Below, piece by piece: positions 6,615-64,000 of a stretch of DNA of 64,000 bases. The translations under genes were made by a program, and so were the position numbers. The first letter of the stretch is position 1. Every line of letters begins with the position of its first letter. The notes under the pieces are model-generated. The model was given only the letters and a program-made list of their open reading frames with translations. It searched no databases and was not told where the DNA came from. Source of the stretch: Chiridota heheva (lineage: Eukaryota > Echinodermata > Holothuroidea > Apodida > Chiridotidae); the NCBI GenBank assembly GCA_020152595.1, contig JAIGNY010001477.1, forward strand, positions 819,001 through 883,000, written 5' to 3'.

Positions 6615-6892
6615 GAAATATCTCTGCCCACAACTCAGTAGCCGAACTCTTCCAAAAAAATCCTCCGGATAAAATTATCTCCTTCCTTTATCATGCTTCC
6701 CTTTATAACCATATTTAGTCCTTCTTCCCCACCCCCCCTCTCTTTACATTATTTTTTCACCCATACACCTCTCTCGATCCCAGCTTTCTGGCTTTTAGTT
6801 CTCGTGTTTCTCTCAATCTCCCCCTGTTTACCCTCCTTCCTACCTCTGGAATGATCTAACCTCTCAGGCACAATTTGACTCTTGCTGTTGTG
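6615..6892 (+). mobile_element. LINE family R, 3' end fragment
   Basis: Matches the end of the RNase H-bearing LINE at 45070-45800: CACAACTCAGTAGCCGA, ACTCTTCCAAAAAAATCCTC, CCATATTTAGTCCTTCTTCC, CTTTCTGGCTTTTAG and the terminal ATCTAACCTCTCAGGCACAA. It ends within GCTGTTGTGG, losing the last bases of the family's 3' end, and stops only about 24 nt before the acceptor of exon D. Sense orientation to MED14. Confidence 0.88.
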
Positions 6893-6916
6893 GAAATATT
6901 ATTATTTTTTTTTAAG

Positions 6917-7067
6917 GGCTCAAAACTTCAACAGTATGCCTAAGAAACAGAGTCAATACAAGATTACAGTGAGCATCAACAACTCTGACGTAGCCAAGCC
7001 TTTACACGTGGTGCACACACCCCCGCTGGAACCAGAAGATGCCAAGAGGGTCGGCCAAGCTATCAGG
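6917..7067 (+). CDS. MED14: MED14 exon D
   Basis: A 151-nt exon. After completing Arg it reads AQNFNSMPKKQSQYKITVSI, then NNSDVAKPLHVVHTPPLEPE and DAKRVGQAIR. This matches vertebrate [26 protein letters not shown]. The acceptor lies after a T-rich run ending TTTTTAAG and the donor is AGG/GTAAGA. It enters in phase 2 and exits in phase 0. The coding strand is conserved, while the sequence immediately upstream is LINE-derived. Confidence 0.95.
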
Positions 7068-8333
7068 GTAAGACTACGTATTATATCAAATCCTTTGTGC
7101 TCTGACTTTAGCGTTCTGACGTGATTATTATTAATATTTTAGATAACAATAACTGTACAGTTTGATTTCATACTTGAAGATTTTAAAGATATCAAAATGT
7201 TGTATTAAGATTTTTGAATGCTTTCACTTATTTTTTTCTTTTAAAGTCCTCTTTCGTATAAGATAGACATGCATGACCACTGAACTAATCCTTTAAGGAC
7301 AATATTATGATTTCATTGACGCCGCCAGTATCCTCCTCCCCACCTCACTATCTTAATCATCCTCCCCTCCCACTCCCCATTCAATGTTGAAATGACGTTA
7401 AAACATAAAGAAATCAATCATTGAAAAGGGGGTAGAGAGTTACAATTCTCGGGAAAAATATTCAAGAAACCTAAAACTATAACATATGTAGTTCTCATAA
7501 CGCTGAATTGTTCCTTCAGTTTTGTCCAAGGTTGTAGATGCACCTGATTATTTCGCAGCATTCCTTAAAAGTCCGTGGACATGGAAAAATTCCTATATTG
7601 GTTAAAAGAATATGAAAATTGAGAACACAATCAGTTTTTGAATTTTTGAAAATAGCACTTTTAGGTTTTCAGTTATGGTTGGTCAAAAATTGATTAATGG
7701 TATATTTGTGACTGGGCAGAGAGCTTGAAATCTTCATGTATTTATTCAAATTTGGTTCCTAAATTGTGAATTTTTCTTCACCATTTTTTTTCTTTTCCCA
7801 AACTTCTTGTATATAAAAATAAACTTGCTTGAGCACTGAAATAATCCTTTTAACCCAGGGGTTCTAAACGTGACAAAAAAATTATCAGAAAGTTTTTTTT
7901 CCTCAAAATTATTTTTCACAACTTTTCTTTCGTTTTCTACCACTACAAGTTTAGTTTATATGAATGTTAAGACAATAAACATTTCAATAATAAAGTCAAA
8001 ATGAATAAATTTGACAAAAATATGCAAATGATACCAAGATCACTGCTGTGGGTCTATTTGACAAAGAAATATATTTTTTGAAAAAGTATGTCCCCAATTG
8101 AGCGTGACACACTTGGTCTGGATATTTAAGGGTTAAGGGAGTTTTCATTTTCATATATATGACAGAGAACTATTAAAAAAACAATTTGGTGTAAAAATAA
8201 ACTTGTTTTGTTTTGGAGTTATTATGTTGTAAAGATTTCACCAGTGTAACCTTGCAATGTAAAATGTGATGGCATAAAAGCAGAACCAAGACAAATCTGA
8301 TGTATTTGTATAAAACAGAAAAAAATGTTCTCT
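7068..8333. other. Intron; one MITE-T end, otherwise unrecognised
   Basis: At about 7235-7297 the string AAAGTCCTCTTTCGTATAAG, then AGATAGACATGC, ending ACTGAACTAATCCTTTAA, is a right end of the TTAA-flanked family T. About 7620-8110 is AT-rich and shares phrases (for example AACTTTCTTTTCGTTTTCTACC complement) with 36720-36910, so an old dispersed repeat is likely. No exon or RNA gene seen. Confidence 0.5.
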
Positions 8334-12599: not shown

Positions 12600-13060
12600 G
12601 ATAATAATAATAATACATTTTCATATACGTGCATTATACGTGCATTATACCGGTCTCAATGCGCTTTACATAAACAAATATAACATGAGAAAACCTTAAG
12701 ATACAAACAGTAAGGAAATAAAAAACCATACTTAAAAAGATACAAGCAGGATAAAGTTACAAGGTCCAATGAGGGTAACTCATGAAAAGATGTGTTTTCA
12801 ATACACTCTTAAAAATATTTAAAGTAGGGGAATTTCTGATGTAGATTGGGAGAATGTTCCAGAGTTTGGGGGCTGCAGATTGAAAAGAACATTCACCATA
12901 AGTCTTGGTGTTAATTTTTGGCATCTTTGGGAGAATAGCACTGTTAGATCTGAGTGAGCGAGTTGGTAATTGTAAGGTGAGTAAGTTGGAAATATGATTT
13001 GGAGCAAGACCATGGATGGTTTTGTATGTGAGACTATTTTAGATCCCAATCTTCCAAATT
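12600..13060 (-). mobile_element. CR1/L2-like LINE, 3' end (RT C-terminus and tail)
   Basis: Read on the minus strand, about 13040 down to 12790 encodes YKTIHGLAPNHISNLLTLQL, TKTYGECSFQSAAPKLWNIL and IRNSPTLNIFKSVLKTHLF, the standard C-terminal end of CR1/L2-type reverse transcriptases (APxLWNxLP, then FKxxLKTHLF). It is followed by GTAAAGCGCATTGAGACCGG and an ATT-repeat tail at 12600-12613, as these LINEs usually have. It is 5'-truncated and antisense to MED14. Confidence 0.92.
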
Positions 13061-13455
13061 TCCGGAGGACTAATTTGAATAGTTTTATATGTCAATAGTG
13101 AACCAATAGTATAATGAGGGAATCTTATCAACCAATCAAATACTGGGAGATTCTTGGTTGCATGTACAATTCATGCAGGGTATGGGGTCGGGCGTATGGA
13201 TATAATGCTTTATATATGCTAATCTTATGTGCTTTATACATAAACGTGTGAATTGTTGTTTACAACTTTACCTGCAGGAATTGCAGCTGATTGGTTGAGT
13301 AACAAAGGGAAAATCCCTCCAGCAGTTGAATGGGGGCGACATACCCTGAAGTAATCATGTTCGGCTAAGATTGGTTTGAAATGGACAATTATACATGTAT
13401 GTTGCAGGAAGCCAAAGAGTAAAATTGTGTAATTTTTTTTTCTATTAAATTTTAG

Positions 13456-27187: not shown

Positions 27188-28168
27188 CTGAACAGAACAC
27201 CAGTTAATGTAGGTTAACTCATCACCTGACTCCTTACTGAATACACTACTAGATCTATACGCCACTGGATCTATACTCCTGAACAGAACACCAGTCGATG
27301 TAGGTTAACTCATCACCTGACCCCCACTGAATACACCACTAGATCTATACTCCACTGAACAGAACACCAGTCAATGTAGGTTAACTCATCACCTGACCCC
27401 CACTGAATACACCACTAGATCTATACTCCACTGAACAGAACACCAGTCAATGTAGGTTAACTCATCACCTGACCCCCACTGAATACACCACTAGATCTAT
27501 ACTCCACTGAACAGAACACCAATCAATGTAGCTTAACTCATCACCTGACCCCCACTGAATACACCACTAGATCTATACGCCACTGAACAGAACACCAGTC
27601 AATGTGGGTTAACTCATTTACTGACCCTTTACTGAATACGCCACTAGATCTATACTCCACTGAACAGAACACCAATCAATGTAGGTTAACTCATCACCTG
27701 ACCCCCACTGAATACACCACTAGATCTATACTCCACTGAACAGAACACCAGTCAATGTAGGTTAACTCATCACCTGACCCCCACTGAATAAACCACTAGA
27801 TCTATACGCCACTGAACAGAACACCAGTCAATGTAGGTTAACTCATTACCTGACCCTTTACTGAATACGCCACTAGATCTATACTCCACTGAACAGAACA
27901 CCAATCAATGTAGGTTAACTCATTACCTGACCCCCACTGAATACGCTACTAGATCTATACTCTACTGAACAGAACACCAGTCAATGTAGGTTAACTCATT
28001 TACTGACCCCCTACTGAATATGCCACTAGATCTACACTCCACTGAACAGAACACCAGTCAATGTAGGTTAACTCATCACTTGACCCCCCCCCCTCCCCCC
28101 TACTGAATACACCACTAGATCTATACGCCACTGAACAGAACACCAGTCAATGTAGATTAACTCATCAG
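27188..28168. repeat. Satellite-like array, 76-bp unit
   Basis: About 13 copies of a 76-bp unit with CTGAACAGAACACCAGTCAA, TGTAGGTTAACTCATCACCT, GACCCCCACTGAATACACCA and CTAGATCTATACTCCA. Variants CCTTTACTG/CATTTACTG and ACGCCACTG recur in patterned order, suggesting higher-order duplication. One copy (28083) has an expanded C/T run. No open frame. Confidence 0.96.
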
Positions 28169-34210: not shown

Positions 34211-34380
34211 TAAGCGCATCGTACGAAAGTCAATCACACTTTGTTAAATGTATCTGACGCATTGCAAACCTATTTCATTTGGTGTTTGTTGCTGGTGCAT
34301 AGGCTAGGCCCCTGTATGTTGTGCAAAAACAAATTTAAGACTACGTAGGCTTGTTAGCGAGGGTGTGCATTTGACAAAAG

Positions 34381-36339
34381 TGTGATGTGTTGAACAGAAG
34401 GCGATGTGATATTCAAAAGTGTGATGTGTTGAACGGAAGGCGATTTGATGTTCAAAAGTGTGATGTGTTGAACGGAAGGCGATTTGATGTTCAAAAGTGT
34501 GATGTGTTGAACGGAAGGCGATGTGATATTCAAAAGTGTGATGTGTTGAACGGAAGGCGATTTGATGTTCAAAAGTGTGATGTGTTGAACGGAAGGCGAT
34601 GTGATGTTCAAAAGTGTGATGTGTTGAACGGAAGGCGATTTGATGTTCAAAAGTGTGATGTGTTGAACGGAAGGCGATATGATGTTTAAAAGTGTGATGT
34701 GTTGAACGGAAGGCGATGTGATGTTCAAAAGTGTGATGTGTTGAACGGAAGGCGATTTGATGTTTAAAAGTGTGATGTGTTGAACGGAAGGCGATGTGAT
34801 ATTCAAAAGTGTGATGTGTTGAACGGAAGGCGATTTGATGTTCAAAAGTGTGATGTGTTGAAGGGAAGGGGATGTGATGTTAAAAAGTGTGATGTGTTGA
34901 ACGGAAGGCGATTTGATGTTAAAAAGTGTGATGTGTTGAACGGAAGGCGATTTGATGTTCAAAAGTGTGATGTGTTGAACGGAAGGCGATGTGATATTCA
35001 AAAGTGTGATGTGTTGAACGGAAGGCGATTTGATGTTCAAAAGTGTGATGTGTTGAACGGAAGGCGATTTGATGTTCAAAAGTGTGATGTGTTGAACGGA
35101 AGGCGATATGATGTTTAAAAGTGTGATGTGTTGAACGGAAGGCGTGTGATGTTCAAAAGTGTGATGTGTTGAACGGAAGGCGATTTGATGTTTAAAAGTG
35201 TGATGTGTTGAACGGAAGGCGTGTGATTTTCAAAAGTGTGATGTGTTGAACGGAAGGCGATTTGATGTTCAAAGTGTGAGTGTTGAAGGGAAGGGGATGA
35301 TGTTAAAAGTGTAATGTGTTGAACGGAAGGCGATTTGATGTTAAAAAGTGATGTGTAGAACGGAAGGCGATTTGATGTTCAAAAGTGTGATGTGTTGAAC
35401 GGAAGGCGATGTGATATTCAAAAGTGTGATGTGTTGAACGGAAGGCGATGTGATATTCAAAAGTGTGATGTGTTGAACGGAAGGCGATTTGATGTTCAAA
35501 AGTGTGATGTGTTGAACGGAAGGCGATGTGATATTCCAAAGTGTGATGTGTTGAGCGGAAGGCGTGTGATATTCCAAAGTGTGATGTGTTGAGCGGAAGG
35601 CGTGTGATATTCAAAAGTGTGATGTGTTGAACGGAAGGCGATGTGATATTCAAAAGTGTGATGTGTTGAACGGAAGGCGATGTGATGTTCAAAAGTGTGA
35701 TGTGTTGAACGGAAGGCGATGTGATATTCCAAAGTGTGATGTGTTGAACGGAAGGCGATGTGATATTCCAAAGTGTGATGTGTTGAACGGAAGGCGATGT
35801 GATATTCGAAAGTGTGATGTGTTGAACGGAAGGCGATGTGATATTCAAAAGTGTGATGTGTTGAACGGAAGGCGATGTGATATTCAAAAGTGTGATGTGT
35901 TGAACGGAAGGCGATGTGATATTCAAAAGTGTGATGTGTTGAACGGAAGGCGTGTGATATTCAAAAGTGTGATGTGTTGAACGGAAGGCGTGTGATATTG
36001 AAAGTGTGATGTGTTGAACGGAAGGCGATGTGATATTCAAAAGTGTAATGTGTTGAACGGAAGGCGATGTGATGTTCATAAGTGTGATGTGTTGAACGGA
36101 AGGCGATGTGATGTTCAAAAGTGTGACGTGTTAAATGGAAGGCGATGTGATGTTTAAAAGTGTGACGTGTTGAATGGAAGGCGATGTGATATTCAAAAGT
36201 GTGATGTGTTGAACGGAAGGCGATGTGATATTCAAAAGTGTGACGTGTTGAATGGAAGGCGATGTGATATTCAAAAGTGTGACGTGTTGAATGGAAGGCG
36301 ATGTGATGTTTAAAAGTGTGACGTGTTGAATGGAAGGCA
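34381..36339. repeat. Minisatellite, 39-bp unit, about 50 copies
   Basis: Unit TGTGATGTGTTGAACGGAAG, GCGATGTGATATTCAAAAG. Variants at three positions (GATTTGATGTTC, GATGTGATATTC, GATGTGATGTTT) form blocks: mixed variants at 34.4-35.3 kb, mostly GATGTGATATTC at 35.4-36.0 kb, and AATGGAAGG/GACGTG variants at the right end. Several units lack 2-3 nt (GGCGTGTGAT), so the 13-residue periodic frames on both strands break and shift. Not coding. Confidence 0.97.
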
Positions 36340-44590: not shown

Positions 44591-45069
44591 GTATGTGTCA
44601 TAGTTTGATTGGCAGGGTGATTTAATCGAAAACCTGGAGTAAATATTGCCGTTGTCACTTTCTATGTTTCTTGAAAGAAAAGAATGAGTTACATGTCGCA
44701 ATGACGAGTGGAGGATATAAGATCTGACGTGTAGGGTCCAAAATTTACGCTATTCTGCTATTCCGAGAAAAGTAGAATCTTCTTTTTCAGTATTTCACTG
44801 TAAAAGTGCACCAAACTCTGATGCAAATGGCTTCTATCGCGGCTGCCAGATTGTTGTGACAGTATGCAGCCAAATTTTGGGTGGTTCACGGCCAAATTTT
44901 CTCAATCTGCACAATCGTCTGTGACAGTATACAGGTATATGGCCAATTGTTAGGAGTTTTACAGCTAAATTTGTTCGATCTGCACAATGTTTATTGGCCC
45001 AATAACGCTAAATAAAAATGATAATTGTTGTACAGTACATGTTAAAATCGGCACGACACCGCTTGTGAA

Positions 45070-45800
45070 AAAACTAATACAGTGTTCTTTTCTTCTGGAT
45101 ACCCAGCCATGTTGGCATCCCTGGCAATGACAGGGCTGATACAGCCGCTAAGCTTGCCCTTAACCTCCTCCCTTCCCCTTTTCCCAAAACCCTCTCTGAC
45201 ATCAAACCGCTTATCGCTTCTCTTGTTCGTGACCGCTGGCAAACCTTATGGAACTTCCAAATTGATAACAAACTCCATGTTATCCAGCCCACAATCCGAT
45301 CAAATCCACCATCAACAACCTTTCTCGTATCGACAACGTTCATATTACCCGTCTTAGAATTGGTCACACCCACCTCACTCCTCCCACCTCCTTATTGGTT
45401 CCCCCAACCCCTCTGTAACAATTGCCACTGCATCCTTACAATCCAACACGTTCTCCTTGCTTGCCCCTGTACAACCTTCCCAGAGCTTCTCTCGCTCCCA
45501 CAACTCAATTGCTGAGTTCTTCCAAAAATCCTCCAGATAAAATAGTCTCCTTCCTTCAGCATGCATCCCTCTACAACCATATTTAATCCTCCTCTTCCAC
45601 CCCCTCTCTACTCTGTTTTTAGTTTTACCCATGCACCTCCTCTCTCGATCACAGCTTTCTGGCTTTTGTTCTTGAATTTCTCTCATTCTTCCCCTGGTCT
45701 CTTTCCTTACTACCTCTAAAATGATCTGACCTCTCAGGCACAATTTGACCTTCGTTGTCGTGGTGCCGTTAAGACCTCATCAAACAAACAAACAAACAAA
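45070..45800 (+). mobile_element. LINE family R with RNase H domain, decayed
   Basis: The longest copy in the window. Broken frames read FWIPSHVGIPGNDRADTAAK and LALNLLPSPFPKTLSDIKPL (end of an RNase H domain, HVGxxGNxxAD), then NVHITRLRIGHTHLTPPTSL and CNNCHCILTIQHVLLACP (CxxC...HxxxxC). The 3' end has CTTTCTGGCTTTTG, CCTCTCAGGCACAATTTGAC, GTGGTGCCGTTAAGACCTCA and a (CAAA)n tail. This plan is typical of I/Jockey-supergroup elements. Sense orientation; frameshifts make it non-functional. Confidence 0.93.
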
Positions 45801-56589: not shown

Positions 56590-56940
56590 TGCTCAAAATG
56601 TTGAAAACTGCATTTTGTTGGGTACAAATGAAAACCTGAATCTGTTATGCTTGGACCGTGGTGTACGAAGTCTTTTCCGTGAACGGCAGAAAAAATATAG
56701 TGGGAAGAGCGGATGTGTATTGTTATTCAATATTTTAGTTATTTTTCGGTGCATCATGTAATTGTAGAGATCAGAGACGGACTTCAGACAATTGTCATCA
56801 CCAACAACACGGCTTGCGGCCCTTACGATTTTCTCCAATTTACTACTTGAATCTTTTGTAAGCAGCCCGAATATACAGATAATACTGAAAGTCAAGATGC
56901 TTTCTATAACTACTGACTGGTAAAAGAGCTTAAGAATAAT
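56590..56940 (-). mobile_element. Non-LTR retrotransposon, RT C-terminus
   Basis: The minus frame reads MTFSIICIFGLLTKDSSSKL, EKIVRAASRVVGDDNCLKSV, DLYNYMMHRKITKILNNNTH and PLFPLYFF, then KRLRTPRSKHNRFRFSFVP. This is the pattern of reverse transcriptase C-termini in which NNxxHPL...GRRxRxPxxKxNRxxxSFVP closes the ORF. A frameshift lies near 56690-56700. Antisense to MED14. Confidence 0.88.
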
Positions 56941-57825
56941 ATTGTCAACTTTGATTTATTTCACTTTTTATAAAAAAATTATACAACCTTTGGTACGCCT
57001 TGGTTCTAGTTGCATCATTGTTTCAAGCATTTCAGACAAGATTATAACTTTAGGCCTATAGACACACTTAAAATGGCAACCATAGGTGTGCTTAATGTAC
57101 CATTGGAAAAACCTCAAATTATGTTGAATTTTGATATTGAAAAACTTTTGCATCCTTAGTCATGAAACTCTTAAAAATTGAACGACAAATCAGGACAATT
57201 TTGAAGCTATTCTGAAAGCCTTGTTAGACAAAAAAAATAGTCATGATATGGCTGTATTACATATTAATTTTCATGGAGAAAAATATTGCGATATATTGGT
57301 ATATCACAATATTTTGAAAGAAAACTGATTCACACATCGTTAATATCACTACTTCTATGCTCCTTTTCACAAGTATGTAATGTATCGACAAGCATTAATA
57401 ATGAACGCAAGAAAAAATCAAAGAAAGAACAAACAAAAAAAATTAAAATATGATGTACATGTGTATTTTCTTTGACCAACGCAAACATTTGTCTGCAAAT
57501 TTTGACCTCGCATTGATTTCCCATACAGTAAACCATGAGTGAAGGGCTTAGTGTTAATTTTGTCACTAGAAACAAACGTTAGGCGACAAAAAATGAAGGA
57601 ATGATACTTCTGGGGCAAAATTATCTCATGGAGAGCTTTAAAAAGATCGTTGTTTTTGAGTAATAATTAAATTATCTTTTTACTTTATACACATCTGGTG
57701 ATAGTAGTGAAAATTTGGAAGAAAGAACCCTTGAACTTCTCGCCGCAACATATTTCTCCAACATACTCGTCACTGGGAGTTATCATACACAATCATCATG
57801 CTATACTGCACTTTCCTGATGTAAC
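56941..57825. other. Intron stretch with no recognised feature
   Basis: AT-rich. The 81-codon minus frame at 57330-57575 has no similarity I recognise. Confidence 0.4.
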
Positions 57826-59479: not shown

Positions 59480-59815
59480 GTAAAGGATTAGTTTAGGGGT
59501 CAAGCAACCAACTGTGGTGTAGCGGTTATCATACATGTCTACAGACCACGAGGCCCTGGGTTCAAGCCTGGGTTGGGTAGACATGCCAGTGCACCACAAC
59601 TGGTCATCAAAGGCCGTGGACATTGACTTGGTTGTCGATGTTATGTCTGTCCGTACGTCGTACCTGTGTTCTCGTCCATGTCGTATTAAGCGTTTCGTGA
59701 TAGCGTTGTTACTATCTTAACCGAATACGCAGGTGACGACCCCGTCATTGTAATTGTGTGTTCACACACTCACTCACTCGTCGTCGTCGGTCAAGCAATT
59801 CTATTTTATATGAGG
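59480..59815 (+). mobile_element. Family T MITE end interrupted by a full SINE-1
   Basis: 59480-59507 reads TAAAGGATTAGTTTAGGGGT, CAAGCAA; 59789-59815 continues GGTCAAGCAATTCTATTTTA, TATGAGG. Between them lies SINE-1 (59508-59788), with target duplication GGTCAAGCAA at 59498-59507 and 59789-59798. The SINE has a complete tRNA-like head: A box TGGTGTAGCGG, B box GGTTCAAGCC, then the body shared with 6037 and 29803. Confidence 0.93.
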
Positions 59816-59924
59816 TTGCAAATCTCAAAAAAGTGACACCCACAGGCTTTTTGGGGAAAAGTCGACAGACCATCTATTATGTATAATTTTAGGGTGCTGA
59901 ATCCAAATTTTTAGTTTGTCACCC

Positions 59925-60590
59925 TCTCAGATGGCTGCAACTCATTCAAAATGGCAGGAAAAACAAAATGGCCACCAAAATAAGGACAATTTTAAAAAGT
60001 AATCTGTAAAATTAAAAATGAAACCATAATACCTCATGTCTGCATGTAATTAAAAAATAGAGTTTATGGAGGGCAATTTTAAAAACCAAATCTGCCAAAA
60101 TAAAAATGAAATGTGTAAAATTAAAAATCAAAGCATAACATTTCATGTCTGCATGTAATTAAATGTAAATTAAGCAGAGTTTATGTTGGATACTTAGGGC
60201 ATGGATAACAGTAAACCCAAGATGTCGGGAAAAACCAAATGGCTGCCAAAATAAGAAAAATAACAACAAATAATGTGTAAAATTAAAAATCAAAGCATAA
60301 CATCTCATGTCTGCATGAAATTAAATGTAATACAAGTAGAGTGTATGTTGGATACTTAGGGCATGGATAACAGTAAACCAAGATGTCGGAAAAAAACAAA
60401 ATGGCTGCCAAAATAACAAAAAATAATGTGTAAAATTAAAAATGAAAGCATAACATTTCATGTCTGCATGAAATTAAATGTAAATTAAGCAGAGTTTATG
60501 TTGGATACTTACGGCATGGATTACAGTAAACCAAGATGGCAGAAAAAATCAAATGGCTGCCAAAAAGAAGGAAAGTAATGAAAAAACATT
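59925..60590. repeat. About four tandem units of 150-165 bp
   Basis: Units share AACAAAATGGCTGCCAAAAT, GTGTAAAATTAAAAATCAAA, GCATAACATTTCATGTCTGC, ATGAAATTAAATG, GTTTATGTTGGATACTTAGG and GCATGGATAACAGTAAACC. The CAAGATGGC and AAAATGGC motifs resemble YY1 sites. Confidence 0.85.
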
Positions 60591-60927
60591 AGAAAATCTT
60601 TTTGAGATGAAACCATTTCTCTGTCGTTTATTTGTATGTTCCATCAATAAATACATTTTGTAAATGTGCTTTTTGATTGCTTTTATGTTACCCAAGATGG
60701 CGACTGAAACAAAATGGTCACCACTGTCAGCTTTTCCATGTTGGAACTACATATATTCAAGCTGAAAATTTTGAATGATGAAATTCTACTTCTGAAAGAG
60801 TTTGGGATATCAACTGACCTTTCTCTCCCAAGAAACAATATCTGTTCCATCTGAAAGTTCCAATATATGACCTTGGTCAGCATAAATCTTTGTTATATTT
60901 TAAAGACTTGATGATATCCTTACTCAC

Positions 60928-61195
60928 CTTCAATGTTGTTACTGATGAAAGTTTGTTGCTGGCAAAACATGCATGCATTCCAATTGAATGGCTGTACTGA
61001 GCTTCTTCACCGAGGTGTTGCTGCTCTGGATAACTCTGGGGGCTCATCAGACAAGTCGCATGTTGACATTTGTTTACTTCTTTGTATGTTAGTCTTGCTT
61101 GTGAAACTGCTATAGCAATATTTGTGCCAATGTAAAACTGGTGGATCATCTATTTCATATATATCTGATATTCTGTCTATCACTGCTCTGGTTTT
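60928..61195 (-). pseudogene. Antisense exon-like segment, Cys/His-containing, unknown family
   Basis: On the minus strand the frame leaving the 87-bp array continues TRAVIDRISDIYEIDDPPVL, HWHKYCYSSFTSKTNIQRSK, QMSTCDLSDEPPELSRAATP, R, then one TGA (61007-61009), then RSSVQPFNWNACMFCQQQTF, ISNNIE, and stops at a strong donor GAAG/GTGAGTAAG. The H-x2-C-Y-x3-F-T and C-x2-C motifs look like a zinc-binding segment known to me from uncharacterised invertebrate proteins, but I cannot name the family. The stop suggests a decayed gene. A possible further exon lies at lower coordinates. Confidence 0.6.
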
Positions 61196-64000
61196 GCTGT
61201 CCCTGTGTTTTTGGCGGGTATTTGCTGATTCTTTTAGTTTATAAAGTCCCTGATCACTTGCAATGAAGAGCCTTTCATGTTTGCTGTCCCTGTGTTTGTG
61301 GCGGGTATTTGCTGATTCTCTTAGTTTACATAGTCCCTGATGACTTGCAATGAAGAGCCTTTCATGTTTGCTGTCCCTGTGTTTGTGGCGGTTATTTGCT
61401 GATTCTCTTAGTTTACATAGTCCCTGATCACTTGCAATGAAGAGCCTTTCATGTTTGCTGTCCCTGTGTTTGTGGCGGGTATTTGCTGATTCTCTTAGTT
61501 TACATAGTCCCTGATCACTTAAAATGAAGAGCCTTTCATGTTTGCTGTCCCTGTGTTTGTGGCGGGTATTTGCTGATTCTCTTAGTTTGTATAGTCCCTG
61601 ATCACTTGCAATGGAGAGCCTTTCATGTTTACTGTCCCTGTGTTTGTGGCGGGTACTTGCTTATTCTCTTAGTTTGCATAGTCCCTGATCACTTGCAATG
61701 AAGAGCCTTTCATGTTTGCTGTCCCTGTGTTTCTGGCGGTTATTTGCTGATTCTCTTAGTTTACATAGTCCCTGATCACTTCCAATGAAGAGCCTTTCAT
61801 GTTTGCTGTCCCTGTGTTTGTGGCGGGTATTTGCTGATTCTCTTAGTTTACATAGTCCCTGATCACTTGCAATGAAGAGCCTTTCATGTTTGCTGTCCCT
61901 GTGTTTGTGGCGGGTATTTGCTGATTCTCTTACTTTACATAGTCCCTGATCACTTGCAATGAAGAGCCTTTCATGTTTGCTGTCCCTGTGTTTGTGGCGG
62001 GTATTTGCTGATTCTCTTAGTTTGTATAGTCCCTGATCACTTGCAATGGAGAGCCTTTCATGTTTACTGTCCCTGTGTTTGTGGCGGGTACTTGCTTATT
62101 CTCTTAGTTTGCATAGTCCCTGATCACTTGCAATGAAGAGCCTTTCATGTTTGCTGTCCCTGTGTTTGTGGCGGTTATTTGCTGATTCTCTTAGTTTGTA
62201 TAGTCCCTGATCACTTGCAATGGAGAGCCTTTCATGTTTACTGTCCCTGTGTTTGTATGGTACTTGCTTATTCTCTTAGTTTGCATAGTCCCTGTTGACT
62301 TGCAATGAAGAGCCTTTCATGTTTGCTGTCCCTGTGTTTGTGGCGGTTATTTGCTGATTCTCTTAGTTTGTATAGTCCCTGATCACTTGCAATGGAGAGC
62401 CTTTCATGTTTGCTGTCCCTGTGTTTGTGGCGGTTATTTGCTGATTCTCTTAGTTTGTATAGTCCCTGATCACTTGCAATGGAGAGCCTTTCATGTTTAC
62501 TGTCCCTGTGTTTGTATGGTACTTGCTGATTCTCTTAGTTTGTATAGTCCCTGATCACTTGCAATGAAGAGCCTTTCATGTTTGCTGTCCCTGTGTTTGT
62601 GGCGGTTATTTGCTGATTCTCTTAGTTTGTATAGTCCCTGATCACTTGCAATGGAGAGCCTTTCATGTTTACTGTCCCTGTGTTTGTGGCGGGTACTTGC
62701 TGATTCTCTTAGTTTGTATAGTCCCTGATCACTTGCAATGAAGAGCCTTTCATGTTTGCTGTCCCTGTGTTTGTGGCGGTTATTTGCTGATTCTCTTAGT
62801 TTACATAGTCCCTGATCACCTAAAATGAAGAGCCTTTCATGTTTGCTGTCCCTGTGTTTGTGGCGGGTACTTGCTGATTCTCTTAGTTTGTATAGTCCCT
62901 GATCACTTGCAATGGAGAGCCTTTCATGTTTACTGTCCCTGTGTTTGTGGCGGGTACTTGCTTATTCTCTTAGTTTGCATAGTCCCTGATCACTTGCAAT
63001 GAAGAGCCTTTCATGTTTGCTGTCCCTGTGTTTGTGGCGGATATTTGCTGATTCTCTTAGTTTACATAGTCTCTGATCACTTGCAATGAAGAGCCTTTCA
63101 TGTTTGCTGTCCCTGTGTTTGTGGCGGTTATTTGCTGATTCTCTTAGTTTGTATAGTCCCTGATCACTTGCAATGGAGAGCCTTTCATGTTTGCTGTCCC
63201 TGTGTTTGTGGCGGGTATTTGCTGATTCTCTTAGTTTACGTAGTCTCTGATCACTTGCAATGAAGAGCCTTTCATGTTTGCTGTCCCTGTGTTTGTGGCG
63301 GTTATTTGCTGATTCTCTTAGTTTGTATAGTCCCTGATCACTTGCAATGAAGAGCCTTTCATGTTTGCTGTCCCTGTGTTTGTGGCGGTTATTTGCTGAT
63401 TCTCTTAGTTTGTATAGTCCCTGATCACTTGCAATGGAGAGCCTTTCATGTTTGCTGTCCCTGTGTTTGTGGCGGGTATTTGCTGATTCTCTTAGTTTAC
63501 GTAGTCTCTGATCACTTGCAATGAAGAGCCTTTCATGTTTGCTGTCCCTGTGTTTGTGGCGGGTATTTGCTGATTCTCTTAGTTTACATAGTCCCTGATC
63601 ACTTGCAATGAAGAGCCGTTCATGTTTGCTGTCCTTGTGTTTGTGGCGGGGATTTGCTGATTCTCTTAGTTTACATAGTCTCTGATCACTTGAAATGAAG
63701 AGCCTTTCATGTTTGCTATCCCTGTGTTTGTGGCGGGTATTTGCTGATTCTCTTAGTTTACATAGTCCCTGATCACTTGCAATGAAGAGCCTTTCATGTT
63801 TGCTGTCCCTGTGTTTGTGGTGGGTATTTGCTGATTCTCTTAGTTTACATAGTCCCTGATCACTTGCAATGAAGAGCCTTTCATGTTTGCTGTCCCTGTG
63901 TTTGTGGCGGTTATTTGCTGATTCTCTTAGTTTACATAGTCCCTGATCACTTGCAATGAAGAGCCTTTCATGTTTGCTGTCCCTGTGTTTGTGGCGGATA
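61196..64000 (-). repeat. 87-bp tandem array with one open minus-strand frame (29-residue unit)
   Basis: Successive GCTGTCCCTG markers from 61196 to 63976 give 33 units, all spaced exactly 87 nt except two 85-nt units (ending 62325 and 62584, where TTTGTGGCGGGTAC became TTTGTATGGTAC). The array runs off the window. Only one of six frames is open in the consensus: minus strand, containing RLFIASDQGLCKLRESAN and RHKHRDSK. Four variant units (near 61671, 62093, 62265, 62960) change a Ser codon to TAA. Variant blocks recur in the same order, indicating multi-unit duplications. The frame joins the unique segment at 60928-61195 without interruption. Confidence 0.93.

Follow-up and report, generated by a model that had tools for sequence, protein, structure and literature searches.

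The window, i.e. the whole stretch of DNA that we analysed, comprises 64,000 nt (C1473:819001-883000) of a 1.1-Gb genome, which we take from MED14 and the transposons to be that of an animal. An exon with the RM2 domain of MED14 lies on one side, and an exon with the RM8 domain lies on the other side, of a decayed transposable element that occupies the right end of the window and runs beyond it (Table 1). Because of these two flanking exons, we place the element, by its sequence context, antisense in MED14 intronic sequence, which agrees with the location given by a sequence-only reading of the window. MED14 was identified from RM2 and RM8 only; three other open frames, in our reading also MED14 exons, gave no match in PDB. 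The 5′ end of the element was recognised by a 30-nt match to the terminus of a second copy, C1966 (score 45, against a maximum of 29 in 500 shuffles), and a 39-nt homologous patch was found near this end (score 63, against a maximum of 35 in 200 shuffles). In our reading, no target-site duplication is recognisable at either the window copy or C1966.

Table 1. Features of the locus; positions are those of the window unless a contig is given, and window-equivalent positions continue its numbering to the right.
Feature	Position	Strand	Evidence
Open frame with MED14 RM2 domain	6879..7124	+	Pfam RM2_Med14 1e-11, PDB MED14 3.7e-5
Decayed antisense DNA transposon copy (putatively Academ-like), 3′ part	59809..64000, on to window-equivalent 68587, ~8.8 kb in total	-	Homology to C1966 and C796, common 3′ terminus
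3′ terminal and subterminal repeat region, with a 153-bp tandem subrepeat (60110-60566)	59809..60600	-	C1966 shows an inverted counterpart at its 5′ end
Internal deletion point: 158 nt gone, present in C796, with a counterpart in C1966	60879..60880	-	
Donor-like GAAGGTGAGTAAGG around 60928, present in the window copy only; GATGAG in both sisters	60922..60937	-	
Unique exon part that follows the array, with the latter half of Cys/His module 1 (WHKYC at 61129) and the CxxC of module 2 (CMFC at 60977); TGA once in frame	60929..61201	-	
87-bp array (29 codons per unit; majority unit DSKHERLFIASDQGLCKLRESANTRHKHR), in-window part of a 60-unit array	61202..64000, array ending at window-equivalent 66427	-	TRF and unit-by-unit phasing
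MED14 RM8 exon, past the element	C1473:900837	+	RM8_Med14 1.3e-7

Several other repeats were observed around the element. An inverted repeat pair (C1473:887587-888131 vs 889795-890262, 78-82% identity) abuts its 5′ end. On the other side it adjoins a tRNA-like sequence at 59500-59620 with the box-B-like GGTTCAAGCC, in which ARAGORN found no tRNA; it is probably a SINE. In addition, we read protein fragments resembling those of non-LTR retrotransposons at 56593-56955 (-), 45046-45515 (+), and 12757-13091 (-), and the fragment at 56593-56955 had a Pfam match only below the cut-off.

Within the element, TRF reported an 87-bp array at 61193-63997 (32.3 copies, 94% matches), with the top score among the 91 TRF rows of the window. 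Phased unit by unit, the window contains 32 complete units, of which 30 have 87 nt and 2 have 85 nt, as well as partial ones; the two shorter units reflect the two 2-nt deletions noted before. Thus, the strict 87-nt array described earlier next to an open exon-like segment is real. It does not stop at 64000, and the sequence to the right of the window shows that the full array has 60 units (56 of 87 nt, 2 of 85 nt, and 2 of 92 nt). The mean pairwise identity of its 56 units of 87 nt is 94.8%, and the units, similar and not identical, stand head to tail with a length in the range of roughly 10-100 bp, as in a minisatellite. Tandem repeats make up 26% of positions 1-64000, in 19 merged arrays (at least 5 copies, units of at least 10 bp), and therefore minisatellite expansion seems to be easy in this genome. 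By our reading, the period is a multiple of three in 9 or 10 of the 19, depending on the period chosen for the array at 27257, and such periods are thus common in the window. Other arrays in the window include 51 copies of a 39-bp unit (34375-36338) and 11 copies of a 76-bp unit (27257-28088).

Only one of the six frames of the unit consensus is open. It lies on the minus strand and, through the array, runs in phase into the segment with HWHKYCYSSFT and CMFC. TAA occurs in 4 of the 30 full-length window units in one phasing; in the other phasing, the fourth sits in an 85-nt unit. These stops, the TGA of the unique segment, and the two 2-nt deletions bear out the earlier view that the window copy is now a pseudogene. 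The lone open frame of an 87-nt unit says little by itself, because 84% of dinucleotide shuffles of the unit also have at least one open frame. For the unique segment, there was 1 stop in 96 codons, compared with a shuffle mean of 5.3 (P = 0.027). As judged from sequence comparison, the coding origin is settled not by the open frame but by homology to long open frames elsewhere, which we consider decisive.

Upstream of the array, there is a start codon common to three copies of the element, just past a likely splice acceptor. In the window copy, the translation from this point starts MEPVLSLKRETTADVSECIIC, and the exon is likely the first coding exon of the element. Its order is CxxC, linker, WHxxC, and then a second CxxC; thus, the exon encodes two Cys/His modules of the form C-x2-C ... 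W/Y-H-x2-C. The 87-bp unit corresponds to the linker that, in the first module, separates CxxC from WHxxC, and the spacing between these two motifs in the window copy is 58 residues after removal of 59 of the 60 units. The sequence-only reading had also placed a strong splice donor, GGTGAGT, at 60928. This proposal had to be given up: on comparison of the copies, the site is not the splice site of the element, because both sister copies have GATGAG at this place.

Searches of the exon against Pfam, PHROGs, NCBIfam, and PDB sequences revealed no family above the cut-off. A prion N-terminal Pfam model on three majority units (0.0017, 18.4 bits vs a cut-off of 24) was the best of six weak matches and was taken as chance, and so was a holin model on a piece of the exon (0.24, below the cut-off). 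A protein scan of viral and bacterial/archaeal contigs gave 12 stretches and no confirmed relative. The WHxxCY pattern occurred in 4, 7, and 13 stretches of these contigs, which we judged from their translations to be chance, and a motif that belongs to an uncharacterised family of invertebrate proteins occurred in 0 stretches. Further exons of the element were searched for in the rest of the window by motif and tblastn, with nothing significant (best E 5.1). Rfam and ARAGORN searches found nothing.

A DNA search of the same genome revealed two more copies of the segment, C796 at 84% identity and C1966 at 83% identity. These counts are lower bounds, i.e. there are at least two sister copies and at least two arrays. 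C1966 carries an array of 26 units, and C796 has one unit. The homology reaches well past the exon on both sides (C1966:65529-71575 and C796:448692-455655). C1966 has inverted ends (65529-65861 vs 71067-71575 inverted, 72-82% identity). It was at first read as a full element, and this was dropped, as C1966 is without most of the protein. For C796, a tblastn alignment to an intact relative covers 166 residues (29.5% identity, 3.4e-17, stops included) and spans the WHxxC region through the second module, with YHLKCY in the relative and YQPNCY in C796. This alignment passes straight through the place equivalent to the donor at 60928. Further along, C796 keeps a decayed piece of the central (DUF6589) domain (6.6e-23). 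Med24_N on a piece of C796 was below the cut-off (0.072), and a downstream piece of C796 gave 3 stretches and no relative in viral and bacterial/archaeal contigs. By our reading, the C796 copy has been entered (~449106-453253) by a non-LTR retrotransposon, in which some stretches resemble a PHD, an endonuclease, and a reverse transcriptase.

A protein search of the genome, in which 150 of 164 candidates were scored, reported 156 matches, and 27 loci were fetched from the matches listed, with weaker matches left out. These 27 more distant loci, none of them one of the three copies above, show open frames of 110-651 aa, with the best match to the exon at 1.4e-10. Thus, the earlier proposal that a coding exon of an antisense element was amplified is confirmed. 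By pattern, the linker is single-copy in the open frame of all 27, although they are mostly close kin, largely one young family, and should not be counted as 27 independent cases. The CxxC pattern was found in the open frame of 14 of them, always 62 residues from WHxxC (14/14); in the remaining 13, CxxC lies before the start of the open frame or before a shift of it.

Six of these 27 loci were fetched with their flanks (L068-L073). They share an element of ~6.85 kb with 96.6-99.0% identity, one of them matching over 6.5 kb only. The 27 loci, labelled L041-L067, and these six longer pieces largely represent one young transposon family of ~6.85 kb. The sequence TAGTCTGGTTGCAAAT stands at both ends of L068, L071, and L072, and L069 has one change at the right end. 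All four of these relatives, the ones with both ends, have 3-bp target-site duplications (L068, ATA; L069, TAA; L071, TAA; L072, TGT). For L070 and L073, two of the six, the right end was not found. Among three open frames scanned, DUF6589 (PF20231) was the only domain above the cut-off, in the open frame of an intact relative (3.6e-8, 33.0 bits vs a cut-off of 27).

The question of whether the array ever served as a protein domain was addressed with the 80 units of 87 nt of both arrays, leaving out 6 units of other lengths. There were 65 distinct variants, of which 12 were synonymous, 49 non-synonymous, and 4 stop, compared with 18, 45, and 2 expected. No protein-level constraint on the units was detected in this count. 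In-frame stops occurred in 9 of the 80 units, 3 of 56 in the window array and 6 of 24 in the C1966 array. The variation of the units looks neutral, and there is no sign of a repeat protein having been kept. Furthermore, no intact relative with two or more units was present among the fetched loci, which are largely one young family. The sequence-only reading had suggested that an intact relative with a repeat domain may exist elsewhere, and had named as evidence against it near-neutral units and the lack of any intact protein with several in-frame copies. Both were found here, the lack of such a protein among the fetched loci. Thus, one half of the suggestion holds, since relatives with long open frames do exist, and the repeat domain, seen in none of the 27, does not.

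How the array arose can be approached from C796. The same 9 bp, GACAGCAAA, are located at the start of its single unit and directly after it, 86 bp apart, which is one 87 period minus a one-base deletion in C796; the bases next to the two words do not match. Short repeats that bound the single unit are what slippage or unequal exchange would need, and the GACAGCAAA pair is therefore the likely seed. From the single copy in the relatives, we infer that C796 represents the unexpanded state and not a collapsed array.

The following history is the one we favour. A putatively Academ-like DNA transposon with inverted-repeat ends inserted antisense into the MED14 intron. In an ancestor of the window copy, the 29-codon linker within module 1 was tandemly duplicated, and slippage or unequal exchange involving the two 9-bp words is the most likely cause of the first duplication. 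Later unequal exchange may then have produced 60 units here and 26 in C1966. The element is dead, and the array has drifted neutrally since. Its frame looks like a coding one because the unit was taken out of coding DNA and its 87 nt are divisible by three, and nothing in it calls for a present function. In short, we are confident that an exon of a now dead transposon in the MED14 intron was amplified and that the array has drifted neutrally, with no need of a present function.

The time of the expansion can be estimated from the two arrays. Their majority units are identical (0/87 differences), and the mean unit identity is 94.8% and 94.7% within the window and C1966 arrays and 94.2% between them. 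Units thus differ by 5.8% between the loci, and the remainder of the exon shows 30 differences in 330 sites (9%). Because of these values, the expansion would have started about when the window and C1966 copies parted, most simply in a common progenitor. Both arrays may also have expanded independently from the same seed. Six variants are common to both arrays, compared with 5.2 expected (P = 0.42), and shared sub-variants thus give no evidence either way on one ancestral array. The identical majority unit, together with a between-array difference lower than that of the rest of the exon, speaks against our explanation. Sampling error can account for it, and exchange between the loci or some constraint may also lie behind it. 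Two negative results count against our explanation as well: the window copy shows no recognisable target-site duplication, and Pfam and PDB sequence searches did not recognise the nuclease that an AcademX element should have.

The same observations bear on other explanations. The array might have nothing to do with any coding exon and be a usual intronic minisatellite in which a frame is open by chance. The many tandem repeats of the window agree with this, and so does the high share of shuffled units with an open frame. However, both the unit and the unique segment have matches in long open frames at the 27 fetched loci, and the one-unit sister copy C796 places the unit inside the exon. In our view, the homologous open frames refute this explanation, and we consider it highly improbable. 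An antisense host gene could run along MED14 on the minus strand and splice a repeat-bearing exon at 60928, in line with the donor-like sequence and the open frame. Nevertheless, the frame is broken by stops and indels, the donor is absent from both sister copies, and the element is repeated elsewhere with inverted-repeat ends, which leaves such a gene a practically negligible chance.

An explanation of another kind accepts the transposon and puts the amplification in a mobile progenitor, whose working transposase had a 29-residue repeat domain and of which both arrays are daughters. Two of the three close copies have arrays, with the same majority unit and ~0.5% net divergence, and part of the window-copy array is a 625-codon open frame. 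Because two of three close copies carry the array, it could have been spread by transposition in a mobile lineage. In its widest form, a mobile, protein-making lineage would have spread an expanding 29-residue repeat in the zinc-finger-like module of its transposase, and intact array-bearing copies would be expected in other individuals or species; we regard this as quite unlikely. Against an active array-bearing progenitor stand the neutral appearance of the unit variation, the absence of more than one unit in every relative examined (0/27), and the chance level of variants common to the arrays. In addition, with the array in between, the distance from CxxC to WHxxC within one module grows by ~1,700 residues. 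A progenitor of this kind is very unlikely, and amplification of a transposon exon that is now dead is the reading that we keep.

The locus is a clear example of a minisatellite that originated in the coding sequence of a transposon. Copies with 60 units, with 26 units, and with a single unit flanked by the 9-bp repeat have all been preserved in the same genome, and the relatives with long open frames reveal what the amplified sequence belonged to. It also gives a warning: a period that is a multiple of three, with an open frame in phase with a real coding segment, need not mean a repeat protein. The case is ordinary in kind and unusually complete, with a readable history, and it is a fossil rather than a new gene.

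With respect to known transposons, the element has several features in common with AcademX, including inverted-repeat ends, 3-bp duplications in 4 of 4 relatives, a length of ~6.85 kb, and long open frames that are Cys-rich in places. AcademX elements encode a nuclease, which is of the XPG type. By contrast, no XPG nuclease was recognised by Pfam or PDB sequence search of the proteins of the relatives. Their stretch EADTR...DTDVLVL...ALTGSDT resembles, as we take it, XPG nucleases, and the C-terminal part is presumably nuclease-like. As to a DDE transposase of the Academ type, the scan of three open frames gave DUF6589 and no other domain above its cut-off. For AcademX, the target-site duplication is 3 or 4 bp according to the passages concerned of one report (PMC10045372). 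We use the term Academ-like only, because the 3-bp duplication fits AcademX but no nuclease was seen by Pfam or PDB sequence; on these sequence features, an assignment to AcademX or Academ fits and is not proven. Among molluscs, Academ is almost limited to bivalves in the relevant part of another study (PMC10294476). DUF6589 proteins are similar in that the open frame of the intact relative matches the domain, and different in that the match lies in the central part of the protein and not in the amplified Cys/His exon. A literature search for DUF6589 by name found no paper.

The closest parallels to the array are TIR-220 of Tetris in Drosophila virilis and Galileo, in which, as described in part of a published account (PMC4079207), a stretch of a DNA transposon has come to serve as the repeat unit in a longer tandem array. 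The turning of a transposon part into a tandem-array unit is the same here. However, the repeats of Tetris and Galileo are located in terminal inverted repeats, whereas 29 codons of a coding exon make up the present unit, and in the present case a one-unit copy with the 9-bp repeat at the unit edges still survives.
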